From: a virus
Length of the DNA: 21,639 nucleotides
Direction: 5' to 3' (one strand)
IMG/VR virus record: IMGVR_UViG_3300009370_000196
Coordinates: 1 to 21,639 of that record
A program made the translations under genes and the position numbers. This document shows positions 1 to 20,102 of this stretch, in pieces. The notes below the pieces were generated by a model that worked only from the letters and a program-made list of their open reading frames with translations, ran no database searches and had not been told where the DNA came from. Each line of letters begins with the position of its first letter. The stretch's first letter is position 1.

Positions 1-59
1 TAGCCGATTCTTGCACGACACTTAGGTTTCTCGGATGGTTTAAAAGGGGTGGCGTTCAA

Positions 60-1583
60 ATGGTTTTCAGAGATCGCGTCAAGTCGCTCAGAAGGGTCCG
101 CTCCGGCGACCTTATGACAAATCCGAAGAACTACCGCACCCACCCTCCAGAGCAGTCAGCAGCGTTACGCGGTGTTCTGAGCGAAGTCGGCTATGCTGGC
201 GCCGTCGTTGCTCGAGAAACTCCCGACGGTCTCGAACTGATCGACGGCCATCTCCGCGCGGAGTTGGATCCAGAGCAAAAGATACCGGTCCTGGTCGTCG
301 ACGTGAGTGGCAAGGAGGCGGACAAGCTCCTCGCGACGTTCGACCCGCTCTCGATGATGGCCGGAACGGACGCCGAAGCACTCGCGAAGCTCCTGGACGG
401 GATGGAGTTCGACGAAGCGTCGACGCAGTCGATGGTCGACGCTCTCGGCGACGGTCTTCCGGACCAGGCCGACGACCTGGAGGCGCCAGAACCGGAGCCG
501 CCGCCGGCCGAACCAATAACGAAGGAAGGCGACCTGATAAAACTAGGCCGCCACCGGTTGTTGTGCGGAGACACGACCGACGCCGCCGCCGTTGTGAAAC
601 TGACGAACAACCAGGAACTCGTCCTGATCCACGCGGACCCACCGTACGGAATGGGGAAAGAGGCCGACGGCATCAAAAACGACAATCTTTACCGCGACAA
701 GCTCGACGCGTTCCAGTTGTCCTGGTGGACCGCCTGGCGTCCGACACTCTCGGACAACGCGAGCGCTTACATATGGGGAAACGCGGCGGACCTGTGGCGC
801 TTTTGGTACGGCGCCGGACTTGGCAACTCCGAGCCGCTGACATTCAGGAATGAGGTTGTATGGGACAAGGGAAACCAGGGAGATGGCCGTAACGGAAACG
901 GGCTCAGAACCGAAGCCGGCCGAATGTACCAACGCTCTGAACGATGTCTGTTTTTTATGCTCGGCGTTCAGGGTTTTAACACTAACGCCGAGCATTACTG
1001 GGAAGGATGGGAACCAATCCGCGAGTACCTGGACATCGAACGGCGACGCCTAAAATGGAGCCACGAACACGTCGCGAAGTTCTTCGGGTTCTCGTCGCGT
1101 ATGCCGTACCACTGGTTCACGAAAAGCCAGTTCGTGTTCATCCGTCAGGAACATTACGAACGACTCCAGGAGGAAGCCGGCGGCGCCGGTTTTAAGAAGG
1201 GTTATCAAGCGTTGTCTCTCGAGTACGAACTGTTGAAGGTCGAATTCGAGAAGGTCAAGGCGGAGTTCTACAAGTCGCGGCCATACTTCGACAACCAACA
1301 CGACACGATGACGGACGTCTGGACGTTTCCGCGAGTCACGGGCGACGACCGCCACGGCCACGCGACACCGAAGCCGGTCGCAATGGCCGCGCGTGCGATC
1401 AAGTCGAGCACGCTGGAAGGGGCGGCCGTCGGTGTTCCGTTCGCAGGCACGTGTCCGGAAATAATCGCGGCGGAACAACTAGGCCGGACGGTGTTCGCAA
1501 TGGAGACGGATCCGAGCTACTGCGATGTGATCGTCCAGCGATGGGAAAAATTGACTAATGGCAAAGCCCACCGGCAAAAATGA
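60..1583 (+). CDS. ParB-like domain / beta-class DNA methyltransferase fusion
   Basis: This 507-aa protein probably methylates DNA (N6-adenine or N4-cytosine). Residues 10-90 resemble the ParB/sulfiredoxin nuclease-like domain, with IDGHLRAEL at 61-69. A Pro/Glu-rich linker (140-152) leads to the methyltransferase. Catalytic motif IV DPPYGMG is at 193-199, HATPKPV at 434-440, and the AdoMet-binding motif I region at 458-476. Motif order IV then I makes it beta class. Residues 320-410 form a long insert, probably the target-recognition region. Motif I is odd: the usual D/E-PF-x-G-[ST]-G reads VPFAGTC, losing the acidic residue and a glycine. The ATG is preceded by AAGGGG. The frame is open to the left edge of the window but has no other start codon. 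The gene overlaps the small terminase by 26 bp. ParB-methyltransferase fusions beside terminase genes are common in phages, where they may protect DNA from host restriction. Confidence 0.9.
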   Translation: MVFRDRVKSLRRVRSGDLMTNPKNYRTHPPEQSAALRGVLSEVGYAGAVVARETPDGLELIDGHLRAELDPEQKIPVLVVDVSGKEADKLLATFDPLSMMAGTDAEALAKLLDGMEFDEASTQSMVDALGDGLPDQADDLEAPEPEPPPAEPITKEGDLIKLGRHRLLCGDTTDAAAVVKLTNNQELVLIHADPPYGMGKEADGIKNDNLYRDKLDAFQLSWWTAWRPTLSDNASAYIWGNAADLWRFWYGAGLGNSEPLTFRNEVVWDKGNQGDGRNGNGLRTEAGRMYQRSERCLFFMLGVQGFNTNAEHYWEGWEPIREYLDIERRRLKWSHEHVAKFFGFSSRMPYHWFTKSQFVFIRQEHYERLQEEAGGAGFKKGYQALSLEYELLKVEFEKVKAEFYKSRPYFDNQHDTMTDVWTFPRVTGDDRHGHATPKPVAMAARAIKSSTLEGAAVGVPFAGTCPEIIAAEQLGRTVFAMETDPSYCDVIVQRWEKLTNGKAHRQK

Positions 1584-16280: not shown

Positions 16281-17126
16281 ATGGCGTCTAAATTATGGGT
16301 AGGCGGCGACGGAACTGGAAGTCAACAAACCGATTGGAGCCGCGCGGCAAACTGGAGTCCGTCCGGAGTTCCATCCGCGTCGGACCTGGTATTTTTTCAA
16401 CAGTCGTCTTCCTATTCCGTGACAACCGGACTCGACCAGTCGTCCGTTGCACTCGGAGCGATGCGCGTCGAGCGCGGATACGTCGGATCAATCGGAACGG
16501 CGTCGAGTTCGCTCCAATGCGATCCTGCCAGCCTGGTAGTCGACACGGGTGACGTCGGCGCGAACTTGTTCTTCGACTTCGGCGCGCAAACGCTGGACGT
16601 GACCGTCAAGAGTTGCTCCGGCGGAGCTCTCGGCAGCTACGGTGTCGAACTGTCCGGCGCCGGTTGCGCGATCAGTTCGCTAATCGTCGACGCCGGGAAG
16701 GTCGGCATTTGCACCGGTGTCGGAGAAACGGCGACAGTCACGACGGCGCGAGTGTCCGGACCTGGCGGCGAACTTCACATCGGCAGCGGTGTCACGCTGA
16801 CGAATATCGACCAGTCGGCCGGCTCGATCATCGTCAGTTGTTCCGTTGCCGACATCGACCTGGCCGGCGGAATCCTGACGACGGACCAGGCGTCGGCGGT
16901 GTCGAGCTCCGCCACTGTCCACGGTGGCGTTCTGAACCTGGAAGGATCCGGCACTTGTGCGGCGTTGACGGTCCACGGTGGATCTGTCCGTTTCGGTGGC
17001 GGCGTTTCGCGGACCTGTACCGCGTTGACACTGAACCGCGGGAGCGTGTCATACGATCCACAATCGTTGACGGTGACAACCTGGAACACGGCGGACCGTC
17101 CGGTGACGGTCACGGCGTCGACTTGA
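16281..17126 (+). CDS. Repeat-containing putative tail spike / receptor-binding protein
   Basis: This 281-aa, Gly/Ser/Thr/Val-rich protein has a composition and periodicity suited to a right-handed beta-helix. The N-terminus has WSRAANWSPSGVPSASDLVF (about 19-38), a motif seen in secreted repeat proteins. C-terminal imperfect repeats of about 18-22 residues read ATVHGGVLNLEGSGTCAAL, TVHGGSVRFGGGVSRTCTAL and TLNRGSVSYD, each with a Cys-x-x-Leu-T turn. There is no signal peptide. A strong AGGAG ribosome-binding site precedes the ATG. As the last structural gene before a putative lysis cassette, it is the best candidate for the host-contact protein. Confidence 0.65.
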   Translation: MASKLWVGGDGTGSQQTDWSRAANWSPSGVPSASDLVFFQQSSSYSVTTGLDQSSVALGAMRVERGYVGSIGTASSSLQCDPASLVVDTGDVGANLFFDFGAQTLDVTVKSCSGGALGSYGVELSGAGCAISSLIVDAGKVGICTGVGETATVTTARVSGPGGELHIGSGVTLTNIDQSAGSIIVSCSVADIDLAGGILTTDQASAVSSSATVHGGVLNLEGSGTCAALTVHGGSVRFGGGVSRTCTALTLNRGSVSYDPQSLTVTTWNTADRPVTVTAST

Positions 17127-17203: not shown

Positions 17204-17512
17204 ATGGAACTTGATCTTGCGAAGTTGCTCGACGGCGGTCCGACGGTGTGGATTGTCTTCGGTGTTGTTTTGTTTCTATTGGCTCGGAACAACAAGGACG
17301 GCGGAATCTCGAACTTGCTCGTCGAGTTGTTGCAGTCCATTCTCAACGCGCCAGCGCCGGACGAATTATCAAAGGCGGACGAGCGCGTCCGCGCGGTCGT
17401 CAAGTTGTCGAACCACCTCCGCGACCAGGACGACGAGAAAAACGCGGACGGCCTTCTGTCATTCTTGCCGGCACTGACACGGAAGGGAAAGAAAAATGAT
17501 CCGAAGGGCTAG
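17204..17512 (+). CDS. Small membrane protein (possible holin-like)
   Basis: This 102-aa protein has one hydrophobic segment (PTVWIVFGVVLFLLA, about 13-27) near the N-terminus and a charged C-terminal domain with a helix ELSKADERVRAVVKLSNHLR. AGGGGG at 17191-17196 gives best spacing to ATG 17204. ATG 17201 immediately before is possible, while an upstream TTG at 17174 lacks a site. It is the first of six overlapping genes and shares 17 bp with the next. A role in lysis is inferred from context. Confidence 0.65.
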   Translation: MELDLAKLLDGGPTVWIVFGVVLFLLARNNKDGGISNLLVELLQSILNAPAPDELSKADERVRAVVKLSNHLRDQDDEKNADGLLSFLPALTRKGKKNDPKG

Positions 17513-17729
17513 CCGTCGACGCGATCGACCAGACCGCGACGAGCGTCGAGACGATCGCCGCGACTGGAAGCGCGAGAAGTGGGAGCACAAACCGCGGAAG
17601 CTCCACGACCTGGTCACGGCGTCCAGTGGTCTCCTGAAGTGGGTGGCGATCCTGGCCGCTCTGTTTTATGGTCTCCAGTATCTCGGCGGCGGTGGCGTTC
17701 TTGAGTTTCTCGGAGGGTCGGGAAAGTGA
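17496..17729 (+). CDS. Small Arg-rich membrane protein
   Basis: This 77-aa protein has a remarkable N-terminal half of alternating Arg and Asp/Glu (DRPDRDERRDDRRDWKREKW). It is followed by one transmembrane segment around 48-64 (KWVAILAALFYGLQYLGG) and a Gly-rich end. GGAAGGGAAAG is a strong ribosome-binding site. The charged N-terminus, single membrane pass and position resemble small phage membrane proteins such as pinholin or antiholin partners, but no family is recognised. Confidence 0.6.
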   Translation: MIRRASRRRDRPDRDERRDDRRDWKREKWEHKPRKLHDLVTASSGLLKWVAILAALFYGLQYLGGGGVLEFLGGSGK

Positions 17730-18127
17730 ACAAACAACGCAGCAACTCCGGCCTGGTGCTCCTCCTTCTCGCCGTTCTCCTGGCCGCCAGTCTGAAACAG
17801 AAGGAAACGGAACCAGCGGCCGCTGATCCGTCGCCGGCCGGATTGTCGGTGATTCTGGAGGCGTTCGCCTGGAACCTGGAGCACGACGGCCAGGCCGATC
17901 GGCCGGTCCTGGAATACTCGAACCAGGTCGGCCAGGCCATCAACGAATTCGGCCGACGGTCCACGCTCGGCCGCGCCTACCGCGAAGCGTTCGCCGCGGA
18001 GTTCGACGAGCTCGGTCGCGACCTGGCCGCCGCTCTCGGATCAAGTGACGGACCGCAACGACTGACACCGGAGACGCGGGCGGCCGCCGTTTCAGTTCTC
18101 CGCCGGCACTCGAGGACCATCCAATGA
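17726..18127 (+). CDS. Membrane-anchored or secreted small protein
   Basis: This 133-aa protein starts at GTG with a GTGA overlap on the previous stop. Residues 9-22 (GLVLLLLAVLLAAS) form a signal anchor or signal peptide with no lipobox. The remainder is soluble and helical, including REAFAAEFDELGRDLAAAL. It overlaps the next gene by ATGA. Possible roles are regulator or partner of the downstream peptidase, for example an inhibitor held at the membrane. There is no sequence evidence for a particular function. Confidence 0.62.
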   Translation: MNKQRSNSGLVLLLLAVLLAASLKQKETEPAAADPSPAGLSVILEAFAWNLEHDGQADRPVLEYSNQVGQAINEFGRRSTLGRAYREAFAAEFDELGRDLAAALGSSDGPQRLTPETRAAAVSVLRRHSRTIQ

Positions 18128-19074
18128 AACTAAACACGACAGGGTGGGCTGCCGACGCGATCGCGACGGAAGGGTTCGCCGAAAGTCTTCCTGCCTTATA
18201 CGGTGAACAACTCGACGAGCTGCCATTCTATCGGGACCGCTCCGCGTTTCCGTTTCGCTTCCTGGCGAAGTGTCTCCGCGGATCCAAGAACGTCCAGGCC
18301 GGACGCCTGGTCGCTCTGAACCAGGGAAACGTCGGGAGTTGCGTCGGTTGTATGGGATCGCGTGTTGCGGATGTGACGGCGGCGGCGGACATCCACCAGC
18401 GTCGGGAGCCGGAACGGTGGCCGGTCAACTCGAACCGGCGGCCAATTATCAGCAGTCCCGAGTATTGCTACGCCGTCTCTCGCCAGGTCGTCGACGGTCT
18501 CGGCCGGTGGGATGGCTCGACGGGTTCGGCAATGGCGAGAGCGTTCCAGGAGATCGGAACGACCCACCAGCGACCGCACGGTCTCGAGCACGATCTAAGC
18601 CGGTACAGTTCACAACGCGCGCGAGAGTGGGCGAGACGCGGCGTTCCGGACGCGGTCCTGGACGCCGCTCGAGAGCATCCGTTTCGATCCGCGGTCCGCG
18701 TCCAGAGTTGCGAACACGCCGCCGCACTGATCCAGAACGGATACGCGTTCGGGATCTGCTCGGGCCTGGCCTGGAGCACGCGGCGAGACAAAGACGGATT
18801 CTCCAGGCGGGTCCGTCCAGGATGGTCCCATGCGATGGCCGTCGTCGGCTATCTGGTAACGCGGCGCGGTCGCCGCGGCTTCATCGTCCAGAACTCCTGG
18901 TCGTCGTCGTGGGGATCCGGTCCGGTTCCGTTCTCCGACTTTCCGACTGGTTCGTTTGTTTGCGAGTGGTCCGACATGGCTGACGTTCTGCGCTCTGGGG
19001 ATTGTTGGAGCTATGGCGGGTACAAAGGTTTCCAGATCAGTCCGTTCGACTGGGAGGGGGGCCTGGGGTGGTGA
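18124..19074 (+). CDS. Papain-like (C1 family) cysteine peptidase
   Basis: This 316-aa predicted peptidase keeps the papain active-site arrangement. Gln67 and Cys73 sit in NQGNVGSCVGC with the papain Gln-to-Cys spacing of six. The catalytic His236 is in GWSHAMAVVGY and Asn257 in IVQNSWSSSWG. Residues 1-60 precede the domain and may act as a propeptide or adaptor. There is no signal peptide or membrane segment, so export would need a holin or virion incorporation. It lies in the middle of a membrane-protein operon with 1-4 bp overlaps. No muralytic enzyme is recognisable in this window. I infer a protease-type endolysin or virion-associated lysin, with processing of tail proteins as an alternative. 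Confidence 0.85.
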   Translation: MKLNTTGWAADAIATEGFAESLPALYGEQLDELPFYRDRSAFPFRFLAKCLRGSKNVQAGRLVALNQGNVGSCVGCMGSRVADVTAAADIHQRREPERWPVNSNRRPIISSPEYCYAVSRQVVDGLGRWDGSTGSAMARAFQEIGTTHQRPHGLEHDLSRYSSQRAREWARRGVPDAVLDAAREHPFRSAVRVQSCEHAAALIQNGYAFGICSGLAWSTRRDKDGFSRRVRPGWSHAMAVVGYLVTRRGRRGFIVQNSWSSSWGSGPVPFSDFPTGSFVCEWSDMADVLRSGDCWSYGGYKGFQISPFDWEGGLGW

Positions 19075-19361
19075 TGCGCTTGATCGCTTTGTTGTTCATT
19101 TGTTGTATGGCAGGTTGTGTCCGCTCGGGCTCGGAGAGTGGGTTCGAGGCCGCCGCGCTGGACTTGCGTCTCGCGGTCGGCGAGGTGTTCGTTTTTTGGC
19201 GACCGGATCCAGGGATGGAACCGACCGCCGGCGACACGACGAGCGTCGGACCTGGCAGTGGATGTTCGGAGGCGCGTCCAAAAAGGCGCAGCCTACCCGC
19301 TCCGGCTATGCGCCGGACGCGCCTCCGGCTGTTTCCGATTTTCAAGAGGAACCGACGATGA
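19074..19361 (+). CDS. Small lipoprotein (possible outer-membrane spanin)
   Basis: This 95-aa protein has a short basic start, a hydrophobic stretch LIALLFICC and a lipobox-like MAGC with Cys15 as the probable lipidation site. Overlap with the peptidase stop is TGATG. The segment FEAAALDLRLAVGEVFVFWRP looks folded, but the last 30 residues are Arg-rich and less protein-like. Over that stretch another frame reads MFGGASKKAQPTRSGYAPDA and continues into the next gene, so a frameshift is possible. It overlaps the following coiled-coil membrane protein by ATGA. A spanin pair is suggested by architecture only. Confidence 0.6.
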   Translation: MRLIALLFICCMAGCVRSGSESGFEAAALDLRLAVGEVFVFWRPDPGMEPTAGDTTSVGPGSGCSEARPKRRSLPAPAMRRTRLRLFPIFKRNRR

Positions 19362-19687
19362 CATTCGACCAGGTCCAGCAGTTCGTTTCTTTGATCGGCG
19401 TTCCGGCGGCGATTCTCGCGTTGTTGTTTTTCTTCCTCTGGAGGTTCGGCCGGTGGCTCGGACCGCGAGCCGATCGAATCATTCAGAACCACGTGGACTT
19501 CCTGAACCATTCCGAAGATAATCAGACGAAGCAGACGGAGACGTTGTCGCGGCAAAGTGAACTGATAGGAAAGACAGTCAGAGCGCTCGCAGAATTCACC
19601 GATGCCGCGGAGAGCGTGATCGACCAGGAAACGGACGAGGCGAAGGTGTTCCTGGAAAAAGCTCGCGACGAATTGAAACCACACTGA
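19358..19687 (+). CDS. N-terminally anchored coiled-coil protein (possible inner spanin)
   Basis: This 109-aa protein has one transmembrane segment at 11-28 (SLIGVPAAILALLFFFLW), a basic flank FGRWLGPRAD, then a long polar helical region (40-105) rich in Glu, Gln and Thr. The ATG is preceded by AGAGGA with seven-base spacing. An in-frame ATG at 19262 has no site. N-terminal anchor plus periplasmic coiled coil is the plan of inner-membrane spanins, but in lambda the order is Rz then Rz1, whereas here the lipoprotein is upstream. Holin accessory protein is an alternative. Confidence 0.62.
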   Translation: MTFDQVQQFVSLIGVPAAILALLFFFLWRFGRWLGPRADRIIQNHVDFLNHSEDNQTKQTETLSRQSELIGKTVRALAEFTDAAESVIDQETDEAKVFLEKARDELKPH

Positions 19688-19718: not shown

Positions 19719-20102
19719 GTGCCGTTGTTATTGTGCCTTCTGTGGTCGCACGTGTCGCCGATCGACTTCCGCGAGTACAGCGTCGACGTGATCGAAGTAA
19801 ACCAAGTTGTGAAGGTGGACGAGTTCGGCCGGATCCGCGAGGCCACGCTTTTGCAAGTCATCTTCTGGGACTGGAACGGTCGCCGCGGTGAGTTCCTGGT
19901 CCGCGACTGGAAAAAGTGGACACCGAAACACCGGCCGCCGGAGTACGATCACAAGCGGAAACGGTGGCGCCTTATTTTTGAGGAGAACGAAAAGTGGATA
20001 ACGGTCTACGCGACGAGCTACATCCAGACCGTCACGGACTTCGATCCGGAGATATTAAACCGCAAGCTCCTGACACCTGACGGTCGCCGGCGGATCCATT
20101 AG
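19719..20102 (+). CDS. Conserved-looking small phage protein of unknown function
   Basis: This 127-aa protein starts at GTG with GGGG upstream. Its N-terminus (PLLLCLLWSHVSP) may be a signal peptide. The mature part has VDVIEVNQVVKVDEFGRI, LQVIFWDWNGRRGEFLVRDW and TVTDFDPEILNRKLL. I recall similar small proteins with a QVIFWDW-type strand in Planctomycetes phage regions, but their function is unknown. The gap to the previous gene is 31 bp. The -1 frame just before its stop opens into the start-less zinc-ribbon frame that follows. Confidence 0.62.
   Translation: MPLLLCLLWSHVSPIDFREYSVDVIEVNQVVKVDEFGRIREATLLQVIFWDWNGRRGEFLVRDWKKWTPKHRPPEYDHKRKRWRLIFEENEKWITVYATSYIQTVTDFDPEILNRKLLTPDGRRRIH

Follow-up and report, generated by a model that had tools for sequence, protein, structure and literature searches.

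A putative host-exit cassette built around a papain-fold cysteine peptidase in a tailed phage of Planctomycetota

The window analysed here, meaning the whole stretch of DNA, is a linear virus record of 21,639 bases (IMGVR_UViG_3300009370_000196) and represents a fragment. Six overlapping genes occupy positions 17204-19687, as a preliminary description had proposed; their open reading frames were confirmed, and successive genes overlap by 17, 4, 4, 1 and 4 bp. These six genes, together with g8, are as follows.

17204..17512, + strand: g1, holin-like candidate of 102 aa with a single hydrophobic segment at the N-terminus
17496..17729, + strand: g2, 77 aa, strongly basic N-terminus followed by one hydrophobic segment, holin-like candidate
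17726..18127, + strand: g3, the partner gene, 133 aa, GTG start, with an N-terminal signal or anchor and a helical domain
18124..19074, + strand: C1 (papain-fold) cysteine peptidase, 316 aa, with Q67, C73, H236 and N257, signal peptide absent
19074..19361, + strand: g5, 95 aa lipoprotein with lipobox MAGC, o-spanin-like candidate
19358..19687, + strand: g6, 109 aa, N-terminal membrane segment and probable coiled coil, i-spanin-like candidate
19719..20102, + strand: g8, 127 aa, short hydrophobic N-terminus

The sister phage (L003, IMGVR_UViG_3300009104_000106) has an identical gene set and order, and its differences from the window are concentrated at third codon positions, with counts by codon position of 11/7/60 in g6 and 66/52/156 in the peptidase gene. 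Hence the six cassette genes are considered to be coding, the signal being weakest in g5 (30/33/44). Identity to the sister is 82% for g1 and 92% for g6.

Hydrophobic segments, called by Kyte-Doolittle hydropathy alone without a trained predictor, are N-terminal in g1, g3 and g6 and internal in g2, which confirmed the three small single-pass or signal-bearing proteins described earlier. No such segment was found in the window peptidase, in agreement with its described lack of a signal peptide, and the lipobox of g5 bore out the lipoprotein. As for the N-anchored coiled-coil protein, the N-terminal segment of g6 stood, and its coiled coil, judged by eye only, is probable. The small membrane genes g1, g2 and g3 adjoin the enzyme gene, and their hydrophobic segments make them putatively holin-like. 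The lipobox of g5, the N-anchored g6 and the 4 bp overlap of the two genes would be compatible with two-component spanins (Rz/Rz1). The small cassette proteins gave no match to any known family of holins or spanins: g5 gave no match in Pfam or PHROG, and g6 gave weak matches to families of unknown function. When the neighbours of peptidase genes were searched, relatives of g1 and g2 were found in the sister phage alone.

PHROG matches revealed a late gene block of the tailed-phage type in the window, in the order ParB/DNA methyltransferase, terminase subunits, portal, head protease, major head protein, major tail protein and tape measure. A glycosyltransferase, matched in both PHROG and Pfam, lies between this block and the cassette. 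The gene content supports a tailed phage as the source of the window. Both the window (1-60) and the related contig L009 (1-58) start about 58-60 bases before the ParB/methyltransferase gene; their first bases differ, and the end of a genome or a break in the assembly is possibly close by. Immediately 5' of the cassette, positions 16281-17126 encode a 281-aa protein of repetitive, beta-rich appearance (starting AANWSPSGVP), which is strongly conserved in the sister phage and resembles a protein of the surface or of a tail appendage. The sister phage also carries integrase and RecT genes 3' of the cassette (L019 6161-7405), suggesting a temperate lifestyle.

Seven of the nine genome matches of the peptidase are titled planctomycetes, e.g. 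Gemmataceae, Gemmatales and Blastopirellula marina DSM 3645. The remaining two are one 'bacterium' assembly and one short contig of an alphaproteobacterial MAG, which may be misbinned. The terminase found matches in 57 of 392 Planctomycetota genomes, many of them near-full-length, window-like relatives (50-60% identity at best); to cultured phages it shows about 30% identity across half its length. Because the terminase relatives and most genome matches of the peptidase are planctomycete, Planctomycetota is well supported by sequence as the host phylum, and the planctomycete host named beforehand was upheld.

The fourth gene encodes a C1 (papain-fold) peptidase with an intact catalytic set, and proteolysis is its predicted activity. 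An HMM search gave a match to PF00112 at 21.2 bits, just over the 20.7 cut-off. An AF2 model built with 24 homologues reached a pLDDT of 83 and a pTM of 0.88 (a first run from two sequences, with a pLDDT of 34, was discarded). Its best PDB matches in Foldseek were xylellain (E value 5e-9) and cathepsins B/K, at about 14% identity. Across 117 unique homologues (29 clusters at 70%), Q67, C73 and H236 are invariant; at the fourth catalytic position, N257, 112 homologues have Asn, 4 have Gln and 1 has a gap. The complete papain-type catalytic set read from the sequence was thus confirmed by alignment, Pfam, model and homologues. The window family shares the fold and the order and spacing of Q-C-H-N with family C1 references such as xylellain of Xylella fastidiosa; it differs from them in being phage-borne, in having a fixed partner gene, in the N-terminal anchor of many relatives and in the lack of a PHROG family.

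This family is hardly visible to standard searches. Among 24 family members, Pfam recognised C1 in 5 and PHROG matched none; tblastn with three members against the 50,697 phage records of INPHARED gave no match; a first profile search of genome contigs with a two-row peptidase alignment was likewise negative; and a close-relative search with the window peptidase returned the sister and two distant C1 proteins, nothing else. By means of one degenerate DNA pattern, however, 44 of 46 IMG/VR matches proved to contain the peptidase family, and the relatives in IMG/VR amount to 44 peptidase loci (from that one pattern), 179 relatives of the partner and 366 of the coiled-coil protein. The module is therefore common in uncultured phages, and annotation pipelines miss it because it is absent from PHROGs and from the tblastn search of reference phage genomes.

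The arrangement around the peptidase was then compared. In viral contigs of the closest relatives, i.e. the best 80 matches per query, the partner gene directly precedes the peptidase in 78/78 partner loci, the coiled-coil gene comes after the peptidase in all 64 loci where this could be evaluated, and no partner or coiled-coil locus without the peptidase was seen. A signal-bearing gene, usually a lipoprotein, follows the peptidase (starting -25 to +40 bp from its stop codon) in 103 of 114 unique loci, 78 of them with a lipobox, against a background of 2 in 133 genes. An iterative jackhmmer search with g3, restricted to peptidase neighbours, reached, in distant loci such as the prophage of B. 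marina, the gene that immediately precedes the peptidase. In hhalign, the B. marina partner group scored 88% with window g3 over 88 columns, 96% with the lipoprotein group and 89% with the soil-phage group, while unrelated neighbours stayed below 2%. Compared directly, window g3 and the partner of the soil clade showed no significant homology (0.4%), the two being linked only via the B. marina group. For g6, homology to the soil-clade coiled-coil protein was rejected as unproven (hhalign 1.8%); position and layout alone agree. The protein g8 belongs to one family with a protein encoded 3' of the peptidase gene in three planctomycete genomes, that of B. marina among them. Sequence comparison thus supports a peptidase-centred envelope cassette as a conserved unit across distant relatives.

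In the loci listed, the partner protein looks anchored, secreted or lipidated. Many divergent relatives of the peptidase have an N-terminal membrane segment of their own, which the window peptidase lacks. The position of g5 is taken by lipoproteins with two CxxC pairs in soil phages, and in L105, L106 and L110 by a lipoprotein whose CxPC motif, read by eye, suggests a thioredoxin domain; Pfam did not confirm the domain in the L105 lipoprotein. In B. marina, L102 and L104, a secreted thioredoxin is encoded slightly further 3' of the peptidase gene. Window g5 itself carries neither a thioredoxin domain nor a CxxC motif. A very similar cassette, composed of partner, anchored peptidase, 97-aa membrane protein, thioredoxin and g8-like protein, was observed in three planctomycete genomes (L068, L102 and L104) and is possibly a widely kept phage-like element.

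The site of the cassette is also informative. In the sister it lies 3' of the tail genes and 5' of the integrase, and in the B. marina prophage just upstream of the terminase. Both are usual places for lysis genes. The cassette might instead modify the envelope or exclude superinfecting phages, the secreted protease and its partner changing surface proteins of the host in infection or in lysogeny, with the lysis genes elsewhere or unrecognised. All its products do appear envelope-directed, the sister record has an integrase, and the cassette is retained in prophages. Such a role is nevertheless distinctly unlikely in our judgement, as the same-strand position inside or beside the block of late structural genes, together with conservation in many lineages, points to a core late function instead of a variable moron, and the searches for four muralytic families found no other lysis enzyme in 24 records. 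We regard it as highly improbable that the peptidase works in the virion or in tail assembly, as a protease for entry or maturation. The window cassette does come after tail-region genes, and the C1 peptidase of another phage (L005) sits among tail-like genes; however, the N-terminal anchors of relatives and the constant linkage to lipoprotein and membrane genes are not expected of tail proteins.

A conventional endolysin was sought in the related phages. Six-frame searches for Amidase_2 (PF01510), Phage_lysozyme (PF00959), Peptidase_M15_3 (PF08291) and SLT (PF01464) gave 0/24 for each family in phage records of 21-39 kb, which are linear and not certified complete; the positive controls of these four families were positive, and PF05838, whose control was silent, was kept outside the count. 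The Pfam scan of called genes from ten phage records or prophage regions contained no muralytic family among the matches listed, two of the gene-level lists being the best 25 of 47 and the best 25 of 30. CHAP, NlpC, M23, Amidase_3, GH19 and GH25 were covered by these gene-level scans only, and gene calls can miss genes. The earlier statement that no muralytic enzyme is recognisable thus holds within the 21.6 kb window fragment, and a muralytic endolysin elsewhere in the genome was not found as far as the records reach.

The peptidase could in turn be a true peptidoglycan endolysin that cuts peptide stems or cross-links, so that only the catalytic family would set the cassette apart from ordinary lysis cassettes. 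A mycobacteriophage Lysin A matches the peptidase structure weakly, and the papain-fold relatives CHAP and NlpC/P60 serve as hydrolases of peptidoglycan and as endolysins of phages (PMC10318531); hence the protein-cutting part of our proposal may be wrong. Planctomycete sacculi exist and are reported to be lysozyme-sensitive (PMC4432640), which also favours an endolysin and means that a peptidoglycan hydrolase could still be needed. On the other hand, the active-site sequence and the fold are those of C1 proteases (xylellain, cathepsins) and not of NlpC or CHAP, no wall-binding domain was seen in the peptidase, and most Planctomycetales lack peptidoglycan genes (PMC8567305). We therefore consider a peptidoglycan endolysin rather unlikely. 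Cysteine-rich YTV proteins are described as abundant in the planctomycete envelope and are contained in wall preparations (PMC8567305), and such an envelope together with the missing peptidoglycan genes makes a protease-based exit module plausible.

Based on elimination (no recognised muralytic enzyme), position and layout, the cassette is probably, in our moderately confident reading, an envelope-lysis module for host exit, in which the C1 papain-fold peptidase occupies the slot of the muralytic endolysin. It had been suggested that the peptidase replaces or assists a muralytic endolysin by cutting envelope protein. This suggestion gained partial support from the conserved envelope cassette and from the 24 records without a match to the four muralytic families; the lytic role, the substrate and the role of each small protein are inferred. 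Action on the envelope appears to be the simplest reading, because the peptidases of relatives are N-anchored and the partner is anchored, secreted or lipidated. Several points count against the exit module, namely ten prophages with window-like terminases that have no C1 peptidase, the C1 peptidase among tail-like genes in another phage, the lack of relatives of g1 and g2 beyond the sister, the unproven soil-clade homology of g6 and the missing thioredoxin or CxxC of g5.

In the mechanism we propose for the exit module, g1, g2 and/or g3 would open or depolarise the inner membrane late in infection. The cytoplasmic peptidase would then reach the periplasm, which in relatives may be achieved by its own N-terminal anchor, and together with the anchored partner g3 it would cut a load-bearing envelope polymer. 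The g5 lipoprotein and the g6 membrane coiled coil could act on the outer membrane like an o-/i-spanin pair. The secreted thioredoxin found in the g5 position of several relatives might open the disulfide bonds of cysteine-rich wall proteins or maintain the catalytic cysteine in its reduced state. The thioredoxin association and the N-anchored peptidase variants, both new relative to the preliminary description, are the strongest hints about mechanism.

Cassettes of the lambda S-R-Rz/Rz1 type likewise consist of small membrane proteins, one hydrolase, a lipoprotein and a membrane coiled coil encoded by overlapping late genes, whereas the hydrolase of the window is a C1 protease and no muralytic family was detected. 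The occurrence of peptidase relatives with an N-terminal segment beside members without it parallels SAR versus holin-released endolysins. Unlike SAR endolysins, the window peptidase has no N-terminal signal-anchor, and its family is not muralytic. Cysteine peptidases serve as lysis enzymes against an unusual wall in the viruses of methanogens, whose pseudomurein endoisopeptidases PeiW and PeiP differ from the window enzyme in peptidase family and in the wall chemistry attacked.

No description of phage exit from Planctomycetota was found in the literature searched, and it is disputed whether protein, peptidoglycan or both make up the mechanical wall of this phylum (PMC4432640 versus PMC8567305). 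A phage enzyme selected to break this wall would be a direct probe, as its substrate would show the polymer that holds the cell together.

Ten planctomycete prophages chosen by a window-like terminase carry no C1 peptidase, and no muralytic family was found in their scanned genes. The G056 prophage encodes, in one protein (L288:6162-7607:-), a signal peptide, a trypsin-like peptidase (PF13365, 1.8e-11), a thioredoxin (PF13098, 3.8e-7) and a membrane segment. Near-full-length relatives of this fusion are present in G323 and, three times, in G397, and these relatives lie some 7-8 kb from a window-like terminase where both share a contig. If the C1 cassette were accidental, it would be surprising to meet a second, unrelated secreted protease tied to thioredoxin in phages that infect the same hosts. 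We tentatively suggest, as a possible but doubtful generalisation, that phages of Planctomycetota dismantle a disulfide-stabilised protein wall by means of a protease, either secreted or released, and a reductant in the form of a thioredoxin or lipoprotein, with no peptidoglycan hydrolase. This strategy would have arisen at least twice, as the C1 cysteine peptidase cassette and as the trypsin-like peptidase fused to thioredoxin.

Directly upstream of the G056 fusion lie a gene for a 210-aa protein without a Pfam match and a membrane coiled-coil gene. Two peptidase genes (L040 5066-5986 and L053 2836-3756) have near-identical N-terminal halves and different C-terminal parts, a pattern that suggests recombination inside the gene. 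Finally, ten prophages in Planctomycetota genomes (L274-L293) carry the head-tail block on about 17 kb and a window-like terminase; genes for lipoproteins and membrane proteins adjoin the tape measure, and clear genes for lysis or replication are absent. These elements could be defective prophages, satellites or gene-transfer-agent-like elements.
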